Positions 11,111 through 24,230 of a stretch of DNA of 35,731 nt are shown piece by piece (positions within the stretch are counted from its first letter, which is position 1; each line of letters begins with the position of its first letter). Location: NCBI GenBank assembly GCA_007571275.1, contig RKRS01000050.1:1-35731 (forward strand). The letters are read 5' to 3'. The notes under the pieces are model-generated. The model searched no databases, was not told where the DNA came from, and was given only the letters and a program-made list of their open reading frames with translations. The position numbers and the translations under genes were made by a program. Source of the DNA: Dehalococcoidia bacterium (lineage in GTDB: Bacteria; Chloroflexota; Dehalococcoidia; Bin125).

Positions 11111-11130
11111 TGTCATCGCGCGTACTGACA
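11111..11130. promoter_or_regulatory. Operator-like inverted repeat TGTCA-N10-TGACA (site 1)
   Basis: TGTCATCGCGCGTACTGACA; 18/20 identical to the reverse complement of 20173-20192. Confidence 0.55.
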
Positions 11131-11262
11131 GTCCGCGTAGCGATTTTTCAGACTGCCGCTACACGAGTGGACCGAGCGTGCCGAAGTTACTGACTACCCG
11201 GTCTGCCCTCTCCTGATTGCTCACCGATCAGGCGAAGGGAGTCGCTCTCAGCCACGCGAACC

Positions 11263-11281
11263 GTCCGCCGCGACGGCGGAC
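11263..11281 (+). promoter_or_regulatory. 5'UTR hairpin upstream of the LLM gene
   Basis: GTCCGCCG-CGA-CGGCGGAC perfect 8-bp stem, 37 nt before ATG 11319. Confidence 0.4.
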
Positions 11282-11318
11282 CAGATCCTCGCCGACGGCG
11301 GCGAACGAAAGGAACACC

Positions 11319-12704
11319 ATGCTTGAGCTCGCGATCTTTCACAACGGAGCGGTCGACCTCGGCAGCGATGTCGTTAATGGCACTCGAGTCAATTCGGGGA
11401 CACTTGAGGAAACCAGCGAAAGTTTCCAGCGGATCCTGATCAATCAGATCCGACAGGGCGTGCTGGCCGAGGAGCTTGGCTTCAACTATTGGTTCATGAC
11501 CGAACACCACATGCAACCCGAAGGGGTGGAGTTCAGTCCCAACCCGATCGTCGCCGAGACAGCCATCGCCGCGCGGACGAGCCGCATTCGGCTCGGACAG
11601 ATGGCCAACATCCTGCCCTGGCACCACCCGGTGCGCTTGGCCGAGCAAGGCGCCATGCTCGATGTGATCAGCGGCGGCCGACTCGAATTCGGCGTCGGAC
11701 GCGGCTACCAGTCCCGTGAAACTGAAGTGCTGGGCGGCGCGATGGGCGCGACGATCCAGGATCAGGAACGCAACCGCTCGTTCTTCGAGGAGTGTTTCGA
11801 GATCATCACCAAGGCCTGGACCCAGCACTCGTTCAGCCATCACGGTGAGTTCTTCAACCTCCCGCCGAGCTACACCAAGTGGGGCAACCCCTCCACGATC
11901 GCCTACTTCAGCCAAGAGCACGTCGATCGCGATCTGGACAGCGTGCTCGATATTGGCGCGCCGGACATGTACGCCTCCGGCCCGCCCGTCTATGCAACCG
12001 GCACGACGCTGAAGGAGATCAGCGTCTACCCGCACCCGATCCAGAAGCCGCGGCCGCCGATGTGGATGCCCGTCACCAGCCCGCGCTCGATCGAGTGGGC
12101 AGCCTCGCACGGGGTCAACTGCTACACGATTCCCGAGCCCAACTCCCGACTCAAGGCCAACGTCGAGCGGTACTACGAGACCCTGGAACGGACCAAGTGG
12201 CCGGACCGCCTCGATCGGGAAGGGCCCTGGAAGTTTGGCTACGACGCCGACGTCAAGCGCGGATTCACCCCGGCCCGATACGTGCACATCCTCAAGCCGG
12301 GCGATGAAGCGAACGACCTCGAGCGCTACAAGCTGGGCATGGAAGCGGCTTGGCCGTACCTCGGCGCATTCGGCTTTGGCGGCGTGATCACCGACATCGA
12401 CGAGCCGCCGCCGCCGCCCGACCGACCGGTGACTGCCGATCTCTGCATCGACAAGGGTCTCGCCTTCGTTGGTACGGCCGACCAAATCGTCGAGCAGATC
12501 ATGGAGATCAAGGAAACGGTCGGCTACGAGGACTTCATGTTTACGGCCTGGTTCGAAATGGGCGGCTACCTCGGCGAAGAGGTTGAGGAGCAGATGCACA
12601 TGTTTGCCGACCAGTGCATGCCGGCACTCGCCGACGCCTGTGGCGGGCTCGTCATCAACCCCGACGTCGGACCGGCCCTGACCGGACCGACGAACGGCGT
12701 CTGA
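11319..12704 (+). CDS. LLM-class flavin-dependent oxidoreductase (luciferase-like monooxygenase)
   Basis: LGFNYWFMTEHHM; AARTSRIRLGQMANILPWHHPVRLAEQGAMLDVISGGRLEFGVGRGYQ. Confidence 0.92.
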   Translation: MLELAIFHNGAVDLGSDVVNGTRVNSGTLEETSESFQRILINQIRQGVLAEELGFNYWFMTEHHMQPEGVEFSPNPIVAETAIAARTSRIRLGQMANILPWHHPVRLAEQGAMLDVISGGRLEFGVGRGYQSRETEVLGGAMGATIQDQERNRSFFEECFEIITKAWTQHSFSHHGEFFNLPPSYTKWGNPSTIAYFSQEHVDRDLDSVLDIGAPDMYASGPPVYATGTTLKEISVYPHPIQKPRPPMWMPVTSPRSIEWAASHGVNCYTIPEPNSRLKANVERYYETLERTKWPDRLDREGPWKFGYDADVKRGFTPARYVHILKPGDEANDLERYKLGMEAAWPYLGAFGFGGVITDIDEPPPPPDRPVTADLCIDKGLAFVGTADQIVEQIMEIKETVGYEDFMFTAWFEMGGYLGEEVEEQMHMFADQCMPALADACGGLVINPDVGPALTGPTNGV

Positions 12705-12767
12705 CGCGGTCGGTTGGTCTCGTTGTTGGTTGCGCCAAGTTGGGACACCGTTGAAGGAGTTCACCTC

Positions 12768-13604
12768 ATGAGCATCACCCTGCAGGGACTCAAGCTCGGC
12801 CATATGGGCATGGATTACGGATTGCTCGGTTATCCGAACCCGAATGACATGCTCCTGCCGAGCCGTCGCGAAGCGCCGCGGACCTGGTACCGCTGCCCGT
12901 CGTTGGCGTACATCATCAATCACCCAGCCGGACGGATCCTGTTCGATACCGGTATCTCGACGAAGTTTGCGGAAGAGTGGCTGCCCGAATGGCAAGGCAC
13001 GCTTGATCTGACCGAACTCACGGCCGACGACCTGCTCGAGAACGCGCTCAAACGGGTCGGCCTGGGGCCGGATGACTTCAGCCATGTCATCCTCAGTCAC
13101 TGTCACGCCGACCACGCCGGCGGGCTGCGGATATTCGAGGAAGCTGGAGCGCAAATCATCCTGCATGAGGATGAACATCGCTACGCGACCAGCATCTGGT
13201 CAGCCGCGAATTTCTTCATCCGTCAGGACTGGCACTTCCTCTCGCGGCGCAACCCGATCTTGATGTATGGCGATCAGGAGATCATGGAGGATCTGTGGAC
13301 GATCAGTCTGCCTGGTCACACGCCTGGCTCGATGGGAGTGCTGGTGCGTCTGGAGACCACCGGCTGGGCGCTGCTCGCCGGCGACGCCGTCAGTACCCAC
13401 GAGGCGTTCGGGCCGCCAGGCTTGCCGAACTTCGTCAACATCAGCAACGAGGCGTTCATCCAGTCGTGCGCGAAGGTCGAAGCCATCGCCTCGGAGCGCG
13501 ACGCATTCATCTTCCCCGGCCACGACGAGTCGGGTTTGCAGTACTCACAAGGCGACCTGGCGATCAAACCGATCGAATTTCTCCCAGGTCATACATATGA
13601 GTAA
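12768..13604 (+). CDS. MBL-fold metallohydrolase, N-acyl homoserine lactonase-like
   Basis: ILSHCHADHAGG (HxHxDH), LPGHTPGSMGVLV, LLAGDAV, FIFPGHDESG; RBS aaggag. Confidence 0.9.
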   Translation: MSITLQGLKLGHMGMDYGLLGYPNPNDMLLPSRREAPRTWYRCPSLAYIINHPAGRILFDTGISTKFAEEWLPEWQGTLDLTELTADDLLENALKRVGLGPDDFSHVILSHCHADHAGGLRIFEEAGAQIILHEDEHRYATSIWSAANFFIRQDWHFLSRRNPILMYGDQEIMEDLWTISLPGHTPGSMGVLVRLETTGWALLAGDAVSTHEAFGPPGLPNFVNISNEAFIQSCAKVEAIASERDAFIFPGHDESGLQYSQGDLAIKPIEFLPGHTYE

Positions 13605-13654
13605 GGTGCGCTGACCGAAACCATCGGTGCAGCGCAGCAGCAGGAGGCACCGAT

Positions 13655-15110
13655 ATGACCGACCACATGGCAGACAGTCGCCTGACACGTTGGCGCTGGA
13701 TGAGATTGGTCGGTGCCGCACTCGCTGCACTGGTGCTCGGCTTCGTTGTCGCCGCGTGCGGCGACGACGACGCCGAGCAACAAACCGCCGCCCAACCCCA
13801 ACCGCAGGCGCAGCAACAGGCGCAACCCCAACCTCAACCACAGCAACAGGCGCAGCCGCAACAGGCAGCAGCCGCAACAGGCAGCAGCCGAGACAGGCAT
13901 TGTGCGGATCGGTTCGGTCCAGCCGCTCTCCGGTGGCGGGCTCGCCTTCTACGGCAAGTCGGAGGAGGTCGGCCTGATGCTCGCCGTCCAGCAGATCAAC
14001 GAGTCTGGCGGCTTTGTCGTCGGTGATACGACGTACACGATCGAGGTCGTCGCGCGCGACACGCGTTCCGATGACGCGGTCGGCATCGCCGCGGTGCAAG
14101 AGTTGATCCGCGACGAGGGCATCAAGATCATCTTCGGCCCGATCCCGCACGGTGTTGGTCTGGCGGCCTCCGAGCTCACACAACCGGAGCAGGTGCTGCA
14201 CCTGATGTCGCTGAGCATTCTCACCTCGGAAGGCGGCGTGCTGAATCCGGAGACCTCCCAGACCAGCCACAAGTGGCTCTTCCAGATCGAGCCGTCGGAG
14301 CTGACCCGCAGCACGATCACCGCAGCGGGCGTGCTCGAACTGCTCGGCGCACAGCCCGGTGACACCTCGGTGATCATCGCCACCGACGACCCCTCAGGAC
14401 AGTTCCTGGGCAGGTTCTACAACGGCGTCCTGACCGCGCTCGGACAGAAAACCCACCCGGTCGTCTTCTATCCGCCCGGCACCACTGACTTCACTCCGTT
14501 CCTGACTCGGCTGAAGGGTCTGAACCCAGATTGGGTACACAACTGGTACATCGCCGCCGACTCGGTCTTGATCGCCGAGCAGGCGCTCGAGCTTGAAGTC
14601 GCCCGCGGCTACATGGTCTTCGGCGTCGACCCGGGCTGGTGGCAAGAGAACTTCCCCGACGGTATCGAGAACGAGTCGCCGATCGTGCTGGCCTGCATCA
14701 ACCTCTGTCGAGCGATCAACAGCAGTGAACGGTCGCGCGAACACTACCGAGCCGTCAACGAGTTCGAGTGTGGCGACCCCGACGGCTGTTCACCGGCGCC
14801 GCTGACCGACATCACCCTCTGGCAGTACGACTACGTCTACATGCTAGTTGCGGCGATGCAGAAGGCCGGCACGGTTGACGACACCACGGCGATCGCCGAA
14901 GCGCTGGAGGGAATCACCATCGACGGAGTGCTCAGTTCCACGCTGACGATGGACCCCGAGTGGCACCGCGTCGCGCACGGGTACGACACCTGCCGCGTCC
15001 AGCTCGGGGAGATCGCCTGCACCAACTTCTCGCTTGAGGAGTACGGACCCGAGGCCCTTGGCGTCACCGAGGAGTTCGTGTTGGCCAATCAGGAGGGGAG
15101 CGAGCAGTAG
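13655..15110 (+). CDS. Branched-chain-amino-acid-type ABC transporter substrate-binding lipoprotein, interrupted by a frameshift in the Q/P-rich linker
   Basis: Signal peptide and lipobox (ALVLGFVVAAC) in frame of ORF 13655; periplasmic-binding domain (IVRIGSVQPLSGGGLAFYGKSEEVGLMLAVQQIN) in frame of ORF 13713. Confidence 0.85.
13853..13900 (+). repeat. Tandem 16-bp repeat (2 perfect copies plus 1 degenerate copy)
   Basis: cagccgcaacaggcag at 13853-13868 and 13869-13884, then cagccgagacaggcat at 13885-13900. Confidence 0.95.
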
Positions 15111-15159
15111 GCCACTCCAGGCTGTTCCGTTGCTCGTCGGCACGGGACAGCGGGCGACC

Positions 15160-15196
15160 TGAGCCCTCGCACGCCGTTCGGCGCCGCGAGGGCTCA
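15160..15196 (+). promoter_or_regulatory. Strong stem-loop between SBP1 and livH1
   Basis: TGAGCCCTCGC / GCGAGGGCTCA 11-bp perfect stem with internal cgcc-gttc-ggcg. Confidence 0.6.
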
Positions 15197-15270
15197 TTCT
15201 GGCAGGCCACCGATGGTGGTTGCTGCGAAACCGCCGACGGCTTTGGAGAGTTGGGAAGGTTGAGACGGCG

Positions 15271-16149
15271 ATGGAGATCTTCCTCCAGCAGGTAATCAAT
15301 GGACTCTCCATCGGCGCCGTCATCGCCTTGATGGCGCTCGGCGTCACCCTCATCTTCGGCCTGACCGGACTGGTGATGTTCGCACACGGCGAACTGCTGG
15401 TGATCGGCGGGTTCCTCGCCTGGTTCGTCACCATTCAGCTCAGCAGTAGTTTCTGGCTGGGCATGGTGTTCGCCATCGTCGCCGTCGGATTGATCGGTCT
15501 GGCCCTGGAGCGCGGCGTCTTCCGCTTCACCTTTGATTCGCCGATTAACGGGTTCATCGTCTCCTTGGGTCTGATCATCGTCTTACAACATCTGTTGGTC
15601 GAACTGTCTCCGGCTGGCGCCAGCATCGTCGACATACCGGCGCCAATCGGGAAGGTCTTCGACCTCGGCGGCGCGCGGATACCAGGCACACGGGTGCTGG
15701 TCGTCGGCGCGACGCTGGCGGTCGTCGCCGTCATGCTCTGGGTGATCTACCGCAGCAGCCACGGACGCGCGCTGCGCGCCAGCGCCATCGACCGCGACAC
15801 GGCGGCGCTGATGGGTATCCCGGTGCGCCGCTACATCATGGTCGTGTTCCTGGTTGGCTCGCTGCTCGCCGGCCTCGGCGGCGCCTTGATGATTGGGCTC
15901 TTCCCGATCGACCCGTTCATCGGAGGACGGTTCGTGATTAAGGCATTCGCCGTCGCCTTGGCCGGCGGTCTCGGCAATCCACTCGGGGCGATCCTTGCGG
16001 CGTTCGGACTCGGACTCGCCGAAGCCATGGGTACCCAGTACTTCCAACCTGAGTGGTCCGAGTCCTACGCCTTCATCGTCATGATCATCATCCTGCTGGT
16101 GCGGCCGCGAGGCTTGCTGACCGGCCTCCAGGGGCCGGCGGCGCGTTAG
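15271..16149 (+). CDS. livH: Branched-chain-amino-acid-type ABC transporter permease LivH (set 1)
   Basis: MEIFLQQVINGLSIGAVIALMALGVTLIFGLTGLVMFAHGE; DRDTAALMGIPVRRYIM. Confidence 0.92.
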   Translation: MEIFLQQVINGLSIGAVIALMALGVTLIFGLTGLVMFAHGELLVIGGFLAWFVTIQLSSSFWLGMVFAIVAVGLIGLALERGVFRFTFDSPINGFIVSLGLIIVLQHLLVELSPAGASIVDIPAPIGKVFDLGGARIPGTRVLVVGATLAVVAVMLWVIYRSSHGRALRASAIDRDTAALMGIPVRRYIMVVFLVGSLLAGLGGALMIGLFPIDPFIGGRFVIKAFAVALAGGLGNPLGAILAAFGLGLAEAMGTQYFQPEWSESYAFIVMIIILLVRPRGLLTGLQGPAAR

Positions 16150-16175
16150 CGGCCGCCGCGAGATTGCGCGTGCAG

Positions 16176-17246
16176 ATGCGAATGACGACCAGTGCCAGGA
16201 ATCAGATCGCCGAGGCGATCAGCAACCCGCGGCGGATGGCCACGGTCGAGCGGGTCGTCGTCATCGTCGCTGTCGGCATCTTCATTCTGCTCATTCCTGA
16301 GTTCACCACTTCGCGCCATCTTTTCCTGGCGACGGTCACCGGTACCACGGCCATCGCCGTCTACGGACTGGCGGTGATCTTCGGGCAGGCGGGCATTCTC
16401 TCCCTGGCGCATGCCGGCCTGTGGGCGATCGGCGCGTACACGGGAGCGATCTTCTTCCGCGAGTTCGGCTGGTCCTATTGGGCGGTGCTCCCGCTGGGCA
16501 TCATCTTCTCCTCGATTGCGGCCGCGATGCTGGCCTATCCGGCGCTGCGCATTCGCGGGCACTTCTTCCTGATCGCGACGTTTGGCTTTGGCGAGCTGGT
16601 GCGGATCGTGCTCGAAAATGGCGGAGGGTTTGAGAGCGGGCGTCGGCTGGGCCTGATCGTCCAAGGCGGCATGCCCGATTTCTTCGGCATCGGGCTGCAG
16701 TCGGCGAACTCGATCTACTACGTCACCGTGGCCTATCTAGCCATCGCGATTGTCACTGTCTACCTGATTCGCCGCTCAGGGTTCGGGGCGACCATGCGCG
16801 CGGTGCGCGAGAACGAGGACCTGTCCGAATCGATCGGCATCCACATTGCGCGCACGAAGATCCTGGCCTTCACCATGAGCGGCGCGTTCACCGGAGCCGC
16901 CGGTGTGCACTACGCCTTCCTGCTCAAGCACATCGAACCGAGCTTGTTCGGCGCCCAGGACGGAATCGAACTTGCCCTGATGGTGCTGCTCGGCGGCGCG
17001 GTTCCCTTGCTGGGGCCGTTGCTGGGCGCCTCGGTCGTGCTGTTTGTGCCCGAGCTGCCCTTCGCCGACAATCCCAACTTCGTGCAGATCGCCTACGGTC
17101 TGGCTCTGATCCTGCTGATTCTGCTCCTGCCGCGCGGGCTGGTCAGCGGGTTGAAGGCGCTCTACATCGAGGCGCGCGATCTGCTGATGCGTACGTTTAG
17201 ATCGGTTCGCGAGCCACCGCAGACGCCCACGTCCGAACACACCTGA
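16176..17246 (+). CDS. livM: Branched-chain-amino-acid-type ABC transporter permease LivM (set 1)
   Basis: VIFGQAGILSLAHAGLWAIGAYTGA; MRAVRENEDLSESIGIHIARTKILAFTMSGAFTGAAG. Confidence 0.92.
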   Translation: MRMTTSARNQIAEAISNPRRMATVERVVVIVAVGIFILLIPEFTTSRHLFLATVTGTTAIAVYGLAVIFGQAGILSLAHAGLWAIGAYTGAIFFREFGWSYWAVLPLGIIFSSIAAAMLAYPALRIRGHFFLIATFGFGELVRIVLENGGGFESGRRLGLIVQGGMPDFFGIGLQSANSIYYVTVAYLAIAIVTVYLIRRSGFGATMRAVRENEDLSESIGIHIARTKILAFTMSGAFTGAAGVHYAFLLKHIEPSLFGAQDGIELALMVLLGGAVPLLGPLLGASVVLFVPELPFADNPNFVQIAYGLALILLILLLPRGLVSGLKALYIEARDLLMRTFRSVREPPQTPTSEHT

Positions 17247-17263
17247 CCTGACTGATTGGTGAG

Positions 17264-18496
17264 TCAGGAACCGCCAACCCGTTCGGCTGCCTGATCGGCC
17301 TCGGTGGCCTCTTCATCTGCCTCAAGCATTTCAGCCGGTTGCTCTGCCGACTCGTCGGATGCCTCGTCTGGTGGTTCTGGAGGATTGGCCGAGGCCGCAT
17401 CTCCATCTCCGGGTCTTGGCGGGCGCAGGTATGCGGCCAGATATCGCTTGGCGTAGCCGTAAAGGTCGGCGACGCCCTGCACTAGACCGTGAGGCAGCAG
17501 GATGATCACTGCAACCAGCATCGCGCCGAAGACGATCTGACGCTGGAACGGGGTCAACCCCAGTCCGATGACGTCCAGAACTTCCGGTAGGAAGCCAACG
17601 ATGATCGCGCCGACCAGCGGGCCCATCAACCGACGCGATCCGCCGAGCAGCACCATCAGCGCCAATTCCACGCCCTCGAATGAGTTGAAGAGGTCGGGTG
17701 CGATGTGTCGCAGCTTGTAGGCGTAGAGCGCTCCAGCCACGCCGGCGAACAAACCGCTGATTCCGAAGGCGAAAATTTTGTACCAGTTGGCGCGGATGCC
17801 AACCGAGCGTGCCAACGGCTCATTTTCACGGATCGCTCGGAATGTCTTGCCCAACGGCGACCTGACCAGGATCTGGGTCACCACGATGGTGATGAACAGA
17901 AACGCGATCACGAGATAGTAGAAGGGCTCGAGTTCGAGGTTGATGTCGAAGCTCTGGCCGAAGATGGCGCCCACCGGTTCGGTGATGTCAAGACCCTGCG
18001 CGCCGCCGGTCAGGCCCTTGCGAGCTTCGGCGCCGCCCAGGTTGCGGGTCGCCAGCACGAAGAGCTCGCAGGCGGCGAAGGTGACGATCACGAAGTGATA
18101 GCCGCTCACCCGCAGGGCGGGGTAGCCCAGCAACAGCGCCGCTGCCATGGCGAAGATCGCCGCCAGTGGCAGCACAGCCCAGAACCCGAATCCGGCCTGA
18201 ATAAACAGGATCGCCGCGGTGTAGGAGCCCACCCCCATCAGGGCCGAATGCGCGATCGAGAGGTAGTTGGTTTGCCCGTAGAGCAATCCCAACCCGTACA
18301 GGGCGATGGCAAAGATGCCGTAGGTGATCGCGGTGTCGATGAAGCGTGAGCTGTTGACGATGCTGGGGAACAGGATCATCACGACTACCAGCGCGGTCCA
18401 GAGCATGCTCTGCGCTGGTGTGAGTTCCCGTGTGAGCTGCCTGGCGAGGCGCCTGGTGACGGGACGACCGCGTGAATCCCAAAACTCAGCAATCAC
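17264..18496 (-). CDS. livM: Branched-chain-amino-acid-type ABC transporter permease LivM (set 2) with acidic C-terminal tail
   Basis: LLYGQTNYLSIAHSALMGVGSYTAAIL; FRAIRENEPLARSVGIRANWYKIFAFGISGLFAGVAGALYA. Confidence 0.92.
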   Translation of the reverse strand: MIAEFWDSRGRPVTRRLARQLTRELTPAQSMLWTALVVVMILFPSIVNSSRFIDTAITYGIFAIALYGLGLLYGQTNYLSIAHSALMGVGSYTAAILFIQAGFGFWAVLPLAAIFAMAAALLLGYPALRVSGYHFVIVTFAACELFVLATRNLGGAEARKGLTGGAQGLDITEPVGAIFGQSFDINLELEPFYYLVIAFLFITIVVTQILVRSPLGKTFRAIRENEPLARSVGIRANWYKIFAFGISGLFAGVAGALYAYKLRHIAPDLFNSFEGVELALMVLLGGSRRLMGPLVGAIIVGFLPEVLDVIGLGLTPFQRQIVFGAMLVAVIILLPHGLVQGVADLYGYAKRYLAAYLRPPRPGDGDAASANPPEPPDEASDESAEQPAEMLEADEEATEADQAAERVGGS

Positions 18497-18601
18497 AGCT
18501 TGGTTCCAGACCTTCCTCGATCACAGGTAGAACGCGGCGGGGGCAAGTTCCATTCACTCTCTGACTCGATGGACGACAGCTCAATCGGCGCAGCCGCCGC
18601 G

Positions 18602-18642
18602 TCACGCTGTTGGCCGCCGTCGAGGGGCGACCAACAGCGTGA
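18602..18642 (-). promoter_or_regulatory. Strong stem-loop between SBP2 and livM2
   Basis: TCACGCTGTTGG / CCAACAGCGTGA 12-bp perfect stem, 17-nt loop, no U-tract. Confidence 0.6.
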
Positions 18643-18700
18643 TGATGACACTCGCGCCTGAGCTGATGACCAGTCGAGTCTCGTTTCGATTCGGCGCCGA

Positions 18701-20065
18701 TCAGAATCCTGGCGTGCCGGGCGGCGGCTCAGACGGCGGCGGTGTGAACTGGCACTCGAACTCGAGCTGTCGCGATACGCAGACTTCGGTTCCATGCGCC
18801 ACGATGTGCCGATCGTCGAAGAAGAATCCATCCGCGATCACGCCGTCGTGCCGCACCTCCAGCAGCGCGTCGACCACGGCGTCGGGGTCCTCGAACGTGC
18901 CGGCGGCTTGATACGCCTTGATCAGCATGTAGTAGTCGTCATAGGTCAGCAGGCTGACCGACGAGAAGGAGCGCAGCTCGTTGCCGAACTCTTCGTAACG
19001 GATCCAGTATTCAGCCGCTTGCTCACGGTCGGTCGCGCCCCAACAGATCGGCACGCAGGCCATGCCGACGGGTAGGTCTGACTGGAGTTCTCGCTTCTTG
19101 TACTCGCCGGGGTCGATCCCGAACATGAAGTAGCCGCTCTTCGCTGCGCCGATCTCCAATGCCTGAGGGATGGCCTGGATGGCGCGGTCGGGGTCGTAGA
19201 GGAACAGCACGATGTCGGGGTCGTGCGCCTTCGCGCGGGAGAACAGCGGCGAGAAGTCCGTCGTATCCGGGTCCCAGTAAATGATGTCGGGGACGGTCTG
19301 CCCGTTCGCTTCCAGCGCCCGCTTGAAGTACGGCCCCAGGAACTGCCCGGTCGCGTCGTTCAACATCAAAATCACCGAGACTTCGGAGTCCGGGTCAATC
19401 AGGTCAACCGCGCCCTTCATAACGCTGCCGCTGCGCTGCCACTCGCGCGTTTCTGTCTGGAACAGATAGCGGTTTTCACCGCCCGGCGCGGTCGCCTCCT
19501 CCGTCAGGATCTCTTCCAGCGTGCTCGAACCGGAGAAGTGCAGCACCTTGGCTGGCTGGGTGACCTTCGAACTGGCGATGGCGAAGTCGTGCGGAGTACC
19601 GCACATGCAGGCGACGATACCGACGTCACGGACGAGCTCCTGCACCAACGCCACGTGCGCATTGATGTCGCTGCGGTCGTCACGGAAATGGATGCGCAGC
19701 TTGTGCAGCTTGCCGTCGATCAGGAAGCCACCGCCCTCTTCGCAGACGCCTTGATCGATGCAGTACTGCGCTCCGGTGTTGATCTCGTGCTCGATCAGCT
19801 TGCCCGATGCTTCATAGGTGTGCCCGAAGACTTCGTAACTGCCGGAACTCGGCGCGACCACGCCGATATCGATCCAGATCACGTCCTCATCGTCCGAGGC
19901 TGCCTGTTGTGGTTCGTCTTGCTGTTGTTCGGCTGGCGCCGCGGCAGCTGGCTGCTCCTCGTCGTCGCCGCAGGCAGCGAAGATCAGCGCGACCATGACG
20001 ACGACGCTCAACAGGGCAGGCAGGACGAGCCCGCTAGGCAATACCTTCCATCTCGTTGTCGTCAT
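18701..20065 (-). CDS. Branched-chain-amino-acid-type ABC transporter substrate-binding lipoprotein (set 2)
   Basis: Lipobox VALIFAAC; IDIGVVAPSSGSYEVFGHTYEASGKLIEHEINTG; VILMLNDATGQFLGPYFKRALEANGQ; aaggag RBS. Confidence 0.88.
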   Translation of the reverse strand: MTTTRWKVLPSGLVLPALLSVVVMVALIFAACGDDEEQPAAAAPAEQQQDEPQQAASDDEDVIWIDIGVVAPSSGSYEVFGHTYEASGKLIEHEINTGAQYCIDQGVCEEGGGFLIDGKLHKLRIHFRDDRSDINAHVALVQELVRDVGIVACMCGTPHDFAIASSKVTQPAKVLHFSGSSTLEEILTEEATAPGGENRYLFQTETREWQRSGSVMKGAVDLIDPDSEVSVILMLNDATGQFLGPYFKRALEANGQTVPDIIYWDPDTTDFSPLFSRAKAHDPDIVLFLYDPDRAIQAIPQALEIGAAKSGYFMFGIDPGEYKKRELQSDLPVGMACVPICWGATDREQAAEYWIRYEEFGNELRSFSSVSLLTYDDYYMLIKAYQAAGTFEDPDAVVDALLEVRHDGVIADGFFFDDRHIVAHGTEVCVSRQLEFECQFTPPPSEPPPGTPGF

Positions 20066-20172
20066 GGAGTTCGCTCCTTCCGTTCACCGGAGGCGCTACC
20101 AGTCGCGTCGTTCCGGCGATCAGCGGCCTGACATCGGCAGCTCTCAGGCAAGATGAAAATTCCCGCACGGGA

Positions 20173-20192
20173 TGTCAGTAAGCGCGATGACG
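20173..20192. promoter_or_regulatory. Operator-like inverted repeat TGTCA-N10-TGACG (site 2) between divergent SBP2 and livH2
   Basis: TGTCAGTAAGCGCGATGACG; reverse complement 18/20 identical to 11111-11130. Confidence 0.55.
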
Positions 20193-20290
20193 AAACACGC
20201 TGTGCCTCTGCGCTAGCTTGACCCGCACCCTCAGAGGGCCGATCGGAGCACCGGTTGGTCCGCGCACGATGGCGAGAGGACGACAGCCAG

Positions 20291-21166
20291 ATGGATATCT
20301 TCCTCCAGCAGCTGGTACTCGGCCTGTCGATTGCCAGCGTGATTGCGCTCATCGCGATTGGCATCACGCTGATCTTTGGTCTCACCGGGATCGTCAACTT
20401 CGCCCAGGGCGAGATGTTGATGATCGGCGGCTATGCCGTCTGGGGGCTGATCGTCCAGGTCGGCTTGGGCGCTGGATTCGGCTGGTACTTCCTCGGCCTG
20501 ATGCTGGCGATCGCCGTCGTCGGCCTACTGGGCCTGGTGCTGGAGCGCGGCCTCTTCCGCTTTACGCTTCAGGAGCCAATAAACGGTTTCATCGTGTCGA
20601 TCGGACTGATCTTTATCCTCCAGCACGTCGTCGCCGGCATCTGGAACGCCGACGCGGTGGATATTCCCCGCCCGCTCAATGTCGTCTGGGATGTCGGAGA
20701 CGTGCGAGTCCTCGCCACGCGCGTGTTTGTGATCGGCACGACCATCGCCCTGTTTGCGACCACCTTCTACGGGATTCAACGCACTCGTTGGGGCCGCGCC
20801 TTGCGCGCGATCGCCACAGATCGCGACACGGCGGCCTTGATGGGCATTCCCGTCCAACGCTATGTGATGGGCATCTTCATCGTCGGCAGCGCGATCGCCG
20901 GACTGGGCGGCGGGCTCCTGATCTCCTTCTTCCCGGTCTCGCCATTTGTCGGCGCGAACTTCGTGATCAAGGGTTTCGCCGTGGCGATCATCGGCGGACT
21001 GGGCAACGTGACCGGCGCGGTGATCGCCGCCCTCTTCCTGGGGCTGCTGGAGGCGATGAGCCAGGGCTACTTCGCGCCCGCCTGGACCAATGCCTACGCG
21101 TTCGGGCTGATGATCCTGATCCTGCTCGTGCGGCCGCAGGGACTGCTGCGCGGTTCGGCTGCCTAG
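20291..21166 (+). CDS. livH: Branched-chain-amino-acid-type ABC transporter permease LivH (set 2)
   Basis: MDIFLQQLVLGLSIASVIALIAIGITLIFGLTGIVNFAQGEMLMIGGYA; DRDTAALMGIPVQRYVMG. Confidence 0.92.
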   Translation: MDIFLQQLVLGLSIASVIALIAIGITLIFGLTGIVNFAQGEMLMIGGYAVWGLIVQVGLGAGFGWYFLGLMLAIAVVGLLGLVLERGLFRFTLQEPINGFIVSIGLIFILQHVVAGIWNADAVDIPRPLNVVWDVGDVRVLATRVFVIGTTIALFATTFYGIQRTRWGRALRAIATDRDTAALMGIPVQRYVMGIFIVGSAIAGLGGGLLISFFPVSPFVGANFVIKGFAVAIIGGLGNVTGAVIAALFLGLLEAMSQGYFAPAWTNAYAFGLMILILLVRPQGLLRGSAA

Positions 21167-21240
21167 CAGCTGTCTGCGATTGTCTGGCGCAGGCACGGCA
21201 GGTCGGGGATACATCCGAACACGCGAAAAGGAGACACCGC

Positions 21241-21660
21241 ATGGCCGCGACAATGAGCAAACAAACGATCAGTGCGGAAGGGGCTCAGCAGGTGATGTCT
21301 GCCGCCATCGCCAAGGCCAACGAGCTGGGTGTGCCCATGTCAATCGCCGTGGTCGACGACTCGGGACAGCTCAAGGCATTTCTGCGCATGGACGGCGCGA
21401 TCTTTCCGAGCGTGACGGTCGCACAGGACAAGGCCTACACCGCATCGGGATTTGGTCTGCCGACGATTCAGTGGTACGACGCGATCAAGGACGACCCTCG
21501 ACTGTTGCACGGGATCGGCTCGATATCGCGATTCACGATGCTCGGTGGAGGTCACCCGATTGTCAGCGACGGCGCGGTGATCGGCGCCATCGGAGTCAGC
21601 GGCGGTAGCTATCAGCAGGACGCGGAAGTGGCGCAAGCCGGCGCCGACGCTCTCGAGTAG
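21241..21660 (+). CDS. GlcG/HbpS family protein
   Basis: GVPMSIAVVDDSGQLKAFLRMDGA...AQDKAYTASGFGLPT...GGGHPIVSDGAVIGAIGVSGGSYQQDAEVAQAG. Confidence 0.9.
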   Translation: MAATMSKQTISAEGAQQVMSAAIAKANELGVPMSIAVVDDSGQLKAFLRMDGAIFPSVTVAQDKAYTASGFGLPTIQWYDAIKDDPRLLHGIGSISRFTMLGGGHPIVSDGAVIGAIGVSGGSYQQDAEVAQAGADALE

Positions 21661-21675
21661 CGGTTTGAGGCAAAC

Positions 21676-22410
21676 TTAATCGCCGCCTGCGGCGTCCGCG
21701 GCACCCAGGTAGAGCTCACGCATCAGACCTGTTTCTCGCATCTCGTCGAGCAATCCCTGCGCGGCGATTGCACCGGTCTGCATCAGGTAGCCGCGCGCGG
21801 CGACGGCCAAGGCCAAACTCGCATTCTGCTCGACCAGCAGCACCGACGCGCCGAACTGTTCCCGCAGACCGAGGATGATCTCCTGCAGGTCGCGGACGAG
21901 GACCGGTGACAGCCCGAGTGACGGTTCATCCAGCAGCATCAGTGTGGGGCGCGCCATCAGGCCGCGCGCGATCGCAAGCATCTGTTGCTGTCCGCCGCTC
22001 AGGTCGCTGCCTTGTGAATCAAGCCGCTCGCGCAAGATCGGAAAGTAGTCCAGCACCCGCTCTAGGTCCGCCGCGACGGAGCTGCGGTCCGTCTGCACGT
22101 ACGCGCCCAGCTCGAGGTTGTCGCGCACGGTCATCCCCTGGAAAATGCGCCGACCCTCGGGTACCAGACTGATACCCGCCTTGGCCGCGCGATCGGCGGT
22201 CCAGCCAACCAGATTCGTGCCCTGATAGACGATCTCACCACTGGTCGGACGGATCAGGCCGGCAATCGCACCGAGCAATGTCGACTTGCCCGCTCCGTTG
22301 GGCCCGAGAATCGCCACGATTTCTCCGGCGTCGATGCTCAGCTCGATGCCTCGGTGCACGCGCGTGCGTCCGTATGCGGTGTGGAGGTCGTTAATCTGCA
22401 GCAGCGGCAA
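21676..22410 (-). CDS. livF: Branched-chain-amino-acid-type ABC transporter ATP-binding protein LivF (likely TTG start)
   Basis: GPNGAGKST, AAKAGISLVPEGRRIFQGMTVRDNLELGAY, LSGGQQQMLAIARGLM. Confidence 0.92.
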   Translation of the reverse strand: MPLLQINDLHTAYGRTRVHRGIELSIDAGEIVAILGPNGAGKSTLLGAIAGLIRPTSGEIVYQGTNLVGWTADRAAKAGISLVPEGRRIFQGMTVRDNLELGAYVQTDRSSVAADLERVLDYFPILRERLDSQGSDLSGGQQQMLAIARGLMARPTLMLLDEPSLGLSPVLVRDLQEIILGLREQFGASVLLVEQNASLALAVAARGYLMQTGAIAAQGLLDEMRETGLMRELYLGAADAAGGD

Positions 22411-23161
22411 GGTCTTCTCCCAAATACACTTCCAGCACCTTGGGATCGCTACGAATCTCGTCAGGACGGCCCTCAGCGATTTTCTGACCGAAGTCCAGCA
22501 CGACCAAGCGGTCACAGATGTTCATCATCATGTTCATGTCGTGGTCGATCACCGTGATGGTCACGCCGCGCTCACGGATGGATTCGATCAGCTGACTCAG
22601 ATCGGCCGTCTCGTTGTCGTTCAGCCCGGCGGCGGGCTCGTCCGCCATCAACAGCTGCGGATGTCCGCCAATAGCGATACCGATACCGAGACGGCGCAGG
22701 TTGCCGAAGCCCAGGTTGGTCGCCTGTTCATGAGCGAACTCGCTCAGCCCAACGAATTCGATGATCTCTTCCGCGCCGTGCAGCCCATCGTATGCCTGAT
22801 CGACCCGAGCTGAGCGTGGCCGGTGCTGGCAAGCGATGCCCACGTTGTCCAGCACTGTGAGGTCCTCGAACGCCATCGCCTGCTGGAAGGTGCGGATGAT
22901 CCCGCGCCCGGCCATTGATTCCGCCGCCTGGCCGGTGATGTCCTCACCCATCCAGGTGACGGAGCCGCCGGTTGGACGATGCACCCCGGCGACGACATTG
23001 AACAGCGTCGTCTTGCCGGAGCCATTGGGTCCGATGATGCCCAAGATTTCGCCGTCGTAGATTTCCAGGTCCACGCCATCGAGCGCATGCACGCCGCCGA
23101 ACCATTTGCGCAGGCCGCGGATCTCGAGAATCGGCTCTCGTTCTTCCATCCGAATGTCCAC
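22391..23161 (-). CDS. livG: Branched-chain-amino-acid-type ABC transporter ATP-binding protein LivG
   Basis: GPNGSGKTTLFNVVAG, RGIIRTFQQAMAFEDLTVLDNV, LLMADEPAAGLN, VTITVIDHDMNMMMNICDRLVVLDFGQKIAEG. Confidence 0.93.
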   Translation of the reverse strand: MDIRMEEREPILEIRGLRKWFGGVHALDGVDLEIYDGEILGIIGPNGSGKTTLFNVVAGVHRPTGGSVTWMGEDITGQAAESMAGRGIIRTFQQAMAFEDLTVLDNVGIACQHRPRSARVDQAYDGLHGAEEIIEFVGLSEFAHEQATNLGFGNLRRLGIGIAIGGHPQLLMADEPAAGLNDNETADLSQLIESIRERGVTITVIDHDMNMMMNICDRLVVLDFGQKIAEGRPDEIRSDPKVLEVYLGEDLAAAAD

Positions 23162-23253
23162 TCACGCCCCTCCGACGGCACCCGGCCAACCGCCTCAAAG
23201 TCGAGGCAAGGGTAGGAGTTGCGAACGTAATTCTCAAGCGTGATAATCCTGCT

Positions 23254-23269
23254 AGGTAATCGATTGCCT
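23254..23269. promoter_or_regulatory. Palindromic site between livG and the Crp/Fnr gene
   Basis: AGGTAATCGATTGCCT, 7 of 8 base pairs symmetric. Confidence 0.4.
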
Positions 23270-23363
23270 CGTTTGGATCAACCCCAAAGGCCCGAGACCC
23301 ACTCAGCGGCAAGCGAGACCGAGTAGCCGTGCGCACGGGAGCGGCTCTGGGCAGGCATCGACG

Positions 23364-24230
23364 ATGGCGGAGCGACGCAGAATAGTTTGGAACGGCACGT
23401 ACATCAAGCAGGGACTGGATGTGCAGAATCAGGTCCGCGCGAACCTGATTCTGCGTGGGATGCCCTCCGAGACGCTGGCTGAGTTGCTCGACAACGCCGA
23501 ACTGGTCTACTTCGATCGCGGCGACCGGCTCGATCATTGGGTGAGTCGTGGCTACGTGATCTTCCCACTGAGCGGCATCCACGGCGGCCTGCTCGAGACC
23601 GAAGACGGCGAGTGCATTCAACCGGTCTTCGTGGGCTCCGAAGGTGTGATCGGCGGGATGCGCGCCCTGCACCGGATGCCGTTTTTCTTCAGCTTCAAAG
23701 TCCGCTTGCCAGGCGAAGCGGTCGTGCTGCCGGCGGCGATCTTTCGCCAGATCGCTGAGCGAGAGCCGGCCCTGAGAGTGGCGCTCACATATGCCTACGA
23801 CAGCAAGTTTCACCTGTCGGCCATGCACGCCGTGTGCGCTCGTTTCCACCCGCTCAGCGTGCGCTGTTGCGCTTGGCTGTCGTTGATCTACAACGAAACC
23901 GAAGACGATATCGTGCCGATCACGCACGAAGAGTTGGCTGAAGTCGTCGGCGCGACCCGGCCCGCCGTCAGCGCGGCACTTTCCCTGTTTGACCAGGCAA
24001 GGATTGGTCTCCTCGATTCGGCGAGGCGCGCTCCGCCTGCTCGATCCGGAACGGGTCGCGCAACTCGCCTGCTCATGTTGGACGACCGCGGAACCAGTCC
24101 CGGTCGAGTGAGACGCATAGTCGGCGCAGTTACGCCGCCAAATCTCCCTCTCCCCTCTGGGGGGAGAAGCCCCCTGCCTACGAGGGGTGGCGCCGGCAGA
24201 GGAGGGCCAGCGACAACCTTTAGCCTCTAA
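23364..24230 (+). CDS. Crp/Fnr family transcriptional regulator; likely 1-nt frameshift near 23999-24000 (restored stop at 24111)
   Basis: cNMP-type domain then ITHEELAEVVGATRPAVSAALSLFDQA; +1 frame continues GLVSSIRRGALRLLDPERVAQLACSCW, a Crp wing/C-terminus. Confidence 0.85.
   Translation: MAERRRIVWNGTYIKQGLDVQNQVRANLILRGMPSETLAELLDNAELVYFDRGDRLDHWVSRGYVIFPLSGIHGGLLETEDGECIQPVFVGSEGVIGGMRALHRMPFFFSFKVRLPGEAVVLPAAIFRQIAEREPALRVALTYAYDSKFHLSAMHAVCARFHPLSVRCCAWLSLIYNETEDDIVPITHEELAEVVGATRPAVSAALSLFDQARIGLLDSARRAPPARSGTGRATRLLMLDDRGTSPGRVRRIVGAVTPPNLPLPSGGRSPLPTRGGAGRGGPATTFSL
23423..23454 (+). repeat. Perfect inverted repeat inside the 5' coding region of the Crp/Fnr gene
   Basis: GCAGAATCAGGT-ccgcgcga-ACCTGATTCTGC (12-bp stem, 8-nt loop). 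Confidence 0.85.
24146..24171. repeat. C/G-rich dyad resembling a dispersed intergenic repeat fragment
   Basis: ccctctcccctctggggggagaagcc; similar in style to the hairpin at 35685. Confidence 0.3.

Follow-up and report, generated by a model that had tools for sequence, protein, structure and literature searches.

A conserved operator candidate shared by two adjoining Liv-type uptake units in a Dehalococcoidia genome

Two Liv-type transport units adjoin each other in the window (the whole 35.7-kb stretch of DNA analysed here, from an uncultured member of the Chloroflexota), and a near-identical 20-bp element stands 5′ of each. Are these elements copies of one operator, through which both units would be controlled together, and which protein might bind it? 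A first-pass annotation of the window had reported that positions 11111–11130 match the reverse complement of 20173–20192 at 18 of 20 positions; both coordinates and identity were reproduced. The sites and the genes around them are as follows.

11111..11130, plus strand: site 1, near-palindromic operator candidate TGTCATCGCGCGTACTGACA (orthologues G001:C14:405639-405658 and G005:C14:100931-100950)
11319..12704, plus strand: luciferase-like monooxygenase (LLM) gene that opens unit 1, with an ATG start kept in four genomes
12714..13604, plus strand: metallo-beta-lactamase-fold hydrolase (MBL), AHL-lactonase-like
13713..15110, plus strand: SBP1, Liv-type substrate-binding protein (Peripla_BP_6)
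15220..16149, plus strand: livH1 permease
16053..17246, plus strand: livM1 permease, ORF as listed; the true start is probably further in
17264..18496, minus strand: livM2 permease
18701..20065, minus strand: SBP2, Liv-type substrate-binding protein
20173..20192, minus strand: site 2, operator candidate CGTCATCGCGCTTACTGACA, 5′ of SBP2-livM2 (orthologues G001:C14:396558-396577 and G005:C14:91655-91674)
20255..21166, plus strand: livH2 permease, divergent from SBP2

Each site is 20 bp long, its tetrads lying 14 bp apart centre to centre. Beyond both, the likeness extends across A/T-rich sequence as far as TGCC, the two copies being offset there by 1 nt (TTTTTCAGACTGCC and TTTTCATCTTGCC), as the annotation had also described. 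Site 1 is directed toward LLM, which most likely starts at the ATG at 11319, and site 2 toward SBP2, which starts at 20065 on the minus strand, so that the orientation relative to the genes is the same for both. The earlier placement of site 2 between divergent units was right, but its direction had to be corrected: it faces SBP2-livM2 just as site 1 faces its own unit. Site 2 may affect the divergent livH2 as well. The ORF at 21180–21608 downstream of livH2, first taken for an apparent HbpS, had no Pfam or NCBIfam match. Neither the third transcription unit, that of the ATPases (21676–23161), nor the Crp-like gene that is considered below has a copy of the site, and the palindrome was absent when the intergenic region between them (23161–23364) was inspected for further copies.

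The match had been called very unlikely by chance. Taken alone it is too weak for that: 20-mer pairs matching at 18 or more positions form 16 direct and 16 inverted clusters in the window, some of them paralogous livH genes or local repeats, and with 32 such clusters an 18/20 match is not decisive. Stronger evidence comes from shuffling and from comparative genomes. When the two intergenic regions alone were considered, 18/20 was attained in only 4 of 2000 dinucleotide shuffles. A window-wide scan with the pattern, allowing up to 3 mismatches, returned these two sites only (0.55 matches expected by chance). Among the 15 congeneric genomes, matches to this first pattern with at most 1 mismatch were confined to the six sites of the three full-locus genomes; at up to 3 mismatches there were background matches, and these were scattered. 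The consensus of the six sites was then sought in 393 genomes of the class, where it had six exact matches, all at these positions, and 1-mismatch matches numbering one each in two unrelated genomes; the backwards control of the same pattern gave 1 match in total. The pattern is thus not scattered through the genome or through relatives that lack the locus. Chance likeness of the two intergenic regions, although 18/20 matches are not rare in the window, is very improbable in view of the shuffles, the retention at both places in two further genomes and the lack of any exact match elsewhere in the 393. Chance and a repeat-element origin of the sites were both rejected because exact copies occur at only these two positions.

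The two further genomes are congeners (G001 and G005) that share a syntenic block with the window and have both sites in place. Synteny was judged from blastn rows alone, the tblastx tables being too noisy. The first aligned base of the blastn match to G001 is 11111, where site 1 itself begins, and the block runs into the Crp-like gene, ending near 24113. Window and G001 agree at 85% of positions in site 1, compared with 41% in the 51 bp before it and 67% immediately after it. For site 2 the identity is 95%, with flanks at 64–87% (82–87% on the SBP2 side), and this site is less discriminating than site 1 since its flanks are similar too. Both sites are therefore conserved above flanking DNA in orthologous upstream regions, more weakly so for site 2. 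Site 1 also stays with LLM across three lineages whose upstream neighbours differ: the window has a YqeC-like gene there, G001 an SBP_bac_5 transporter operon and G017, a genome of another genus, a gene of the SMP-30 family. As both sites are intact in three closely related genomes only, common descent accounts for some of the conservation, most of all at site 2.

Across the six sites of the window, G001 and G005, GTCAT...GC.TACTGACA is invariant, and variation is limited to the first and central positions. The palindromic core TGTCA-N10-TGACA proposed in the first-pass annotation survives in its GTCA/TGAC arms but is imperfect, in that the symmetry common to all six copies is limited to these arms and the central GC.

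The right arm had been read as doubling as a −35-like element. The corresponding promoter features in the window are these.

11125..11130, plus strand: −35-like hexamer CTGACA, the right arm of site 1, invariant in the six sites
11149..11154, plus strand: weak −10-like CAGACT of site 1, 18 bp after the −35
20150..20155, minus strand: weak −10-like CATCTT of site 2, 17 bp after CTGACA

All six sites carry CTGACA; a −10-like hexamer (CAGACT, CAGAAT or CATCTT) stands 17–18 bp further on, GCC comes next, and the spacer contains a GATT or AATT tract. Orientation, spacing and this tract before the −10 are common to sites 1 and 2. In the relatives the −10 of site 1 is CAGAAT at 17 bp (G001 and G005) or TATAAG at 18 bp (G017). 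Measured against the sigma-70 consensus, CTGACA agrees at 5 of 6 positions, and the window −10 hexamers, CAGACT and CATCTT, at 3 of 6. The overlap of operator and −35 is plausible, but a strict sigma-70 consensus scan accepted a promoter at neither site, because the −10 hexamers are weak. On the sequence, the operator centre would precede the inferred transcription start by about 40 bp, close to the class II position of the CRP/FNR family, in which the site is centred near −41.5 (PMC8561392). Weak −10 hexamers together with the class II position make activation somewhat more likely than repression. This is a slight lean, a repressor covering the −35 being equally possible physically.

The genome of the other genus, G017, has the block in a shortened form without SBP1-livH1-livM1. 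A relative of site 1 (TGTCTCCGCGCGTACAGACT) is found 5′ of its LLM gene, 96 bp before the ATG, matching the consensus at 16 of 20 positions, a score also reached by 8 of 20000 shuffled versions of the local sequence. Both arms are altered there, GTCA..TGAC having become GTCT..AGAC, with dyad symmetry kept; such a symmetric double change, read as a single event, is as expected for a site that binds a dimer. The SBP2 copy in G017 retains the right half (CGCTTACTGA) and has lost the left arm.

We consider it probable that the two elements are copies of one operator, built into the promoters of two Liv-type operons that are controlled together. The GTCA-N10-TGAC arms would be contacted by a regulator that binds DNA as a dimer, its site centred near −40 of each promoter, and the arm on the downstream side would double as the −35 (CTGACA, 17–18 bp, weak −10). 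Such a regulator would switch LLM-MBL-SBP1-livH1-livM1 and SBP2-livM2 together; its first candidate would be the Crp/Fnr-like protein that the block itself encodes. The sequences show the sites, how they are oriented, their conservation and specificity, and a single symmetric double change in G017; from these we infer promoter use, dimer binding, the sign of regulation, the identity of the regulator and the reading of unit 1 as a single operon. A shared, selectively kept regulatory element before both units appears well supported by the two congeners, the specificity among 393 genomes and the double change in G017. Since relatives keep the switch at both places, both gene sets are probably under one protein. 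The earlier suggestion of one regulator for both operons is partly supported, the Crp/Fnr-like protein being only a candidate for it. Could the likeness instead be that of two matched core promoters, each a conserved −35 with its flanks, perhaps produced by promoter duplication, in which the palindrome is incidental? Conservation is highest in the right half (TACTGA), which persists even in the SBP2 copy of G017, and the similarity reaches the −10 and GCC, as such an origin would have it. However, the six sites all have GTCAT as their left arm, at a place where no core promoter element is expected, and site 1 of G017 is altered symmetrically in both arms. We therefore think this explanation unlikely.

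Within the preferred reading of a shared operator, the regulator may be encoded in the block itself or elsewhere in the genome. The local candidate is the following gene.

23364..24230, plus strand: Crp/Fnr-like regulator (HTH_Crp_2), candidate binder, the only regulator gene of the conserved block (11111–24113)

The first-pass annotation had named this protein as one regulator to try, and it might act at both sites as a class II-like activator or as a repressor. Its counterparts in G001 and G005 match HTH_Crp_2 (E 2e-13 and 8e-13), and clear orthologues occur only in the locus-bearing genomes (G000, G001, G005 and G017), being absent from the other 12 congeners. This co-occurrence, the lack of a second regulator gene in the block and a site centre near −40, in agreement with the class II position (PMC8561392), all favour it. 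Against it stands the geometry: the 5-mer half-sites of known Crp/Fnr-family operators are separated by N6, as in CooA (TGTCGGCnnGCCGACA) and HcpR (TTGTGAnnnnnnTCACAA) (PMC545781), and TGTCA-N10-TGACA departs from that half-site spacing; an N6-spaced version of the site was sought in the locus and none was found. The G017 protein has the same recognition helix, TRPAVSAALS, although the G017 sites have changed, and the gene's own promoter lacks the site. Moreover, the window copy shifts frame just after the recognition helix, leaving the C-terminal wing in another frame (about 23947–24108), whereas the copies in G001, G005 and G017 are intact there; the shift is either genuine or an artefact of assembly. 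Near the distant Crp-like homologues of the class (loci L087–L092) there was no TGTCA-N10-TGACA site. A structure predicted from three of the Crp-like sequences was too poor for use (mean pLDDT 39), and searching solved structures by sequence brought up no match. On balance we regard the local protein as a possible but doubtful regulator.

A 20-bp length and 14-bp tetrad spacing are more in keeping with several dimeric families than with Crp/Fnr. A dimer encoded elsewhere in the genome, for example of TetR, GntR or LysR type, is accordingly a credible binder of both sites, at least as likely as the local Crp-like protein, and the N10 geometry that speaks against the latter works in its favour. 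No such regulator was identified, however, and the congeners that lack the locus have no sites, so a regulator encoded elsewhere would have no strong target outside the locus. That the locus Crp/Fnr-like protein itself binds GTCA-N10-TGAC, coordinating two Liv systems, a monooxygenase and a lactonase-like hydrolase, strikes us as improbable; if true, it would be a new and unusually wide binding geometry for the superfamily.

The arrangement resembles known systems in part. As at class II CRP/FNR promoters, a dyad site lies about 40 bp upstream of the presumed start, overlaps the −35 and is paired with a weak −10, and a Crp/Fnr-like gene is present in the locus; unlike them, the half-sites are N10 rather than N6 apart, the −35 is good (5/6) and the activator role is putative. 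The TGTC half-site of the CooA operator resembles the outer arm of the sites, but that operator is 16 bp long with N6 between 5-mers, compared with 20 bp and N10 here, and the block is without CO-oxidation genes. Two same-pathway operons under one operator kept in relatives recall the local transporter regulons of the RegPrecise type (PMC3840689), with the difference that here the site sequence was not recognised as any known operator and the regulator is a candidate only. From sequence comparison, then, this is a real, conserved and locus-specific shared operator-promoter for two Liv-type units, with binding putative. It is an ordinary kind of local regulation in a little-studied group, and the regulatory principle itself is ordinary.

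To our knowledge, there has been little work on gene regulation in uncultured Dehalococcoidia, and the sites supply a specific operator candidate for a gene block in such a bacterium. They also suggest that two adjoining Liv-type uptake systems, a monooxygenase and a lactonase-like enzyme form one physiological unit.

A scan of viral contigs with SBP2 found nothing. Over 13713–23161, the two SBP/livH/livM sets adjoin a single ATPase pair (21676–23161), so both permeases may share one ATPase pair. The block from LLM to the Crp-like gene (11111–24113) has a patchy distribution: 3 of the 15 genomes in the genus contain it, its flanking genes differ, and outside the genus it occurs in one genome, where it is without SBP1-livH1-livM1; it may be a horizontally moving or a repeatedly lost module. 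The intergenic region between the ATPases and the Crp-like gene contains a separate conserved noncoding block at 23200–23260 (AATTCTCAA...GATAAT), probably a separate promoter region.
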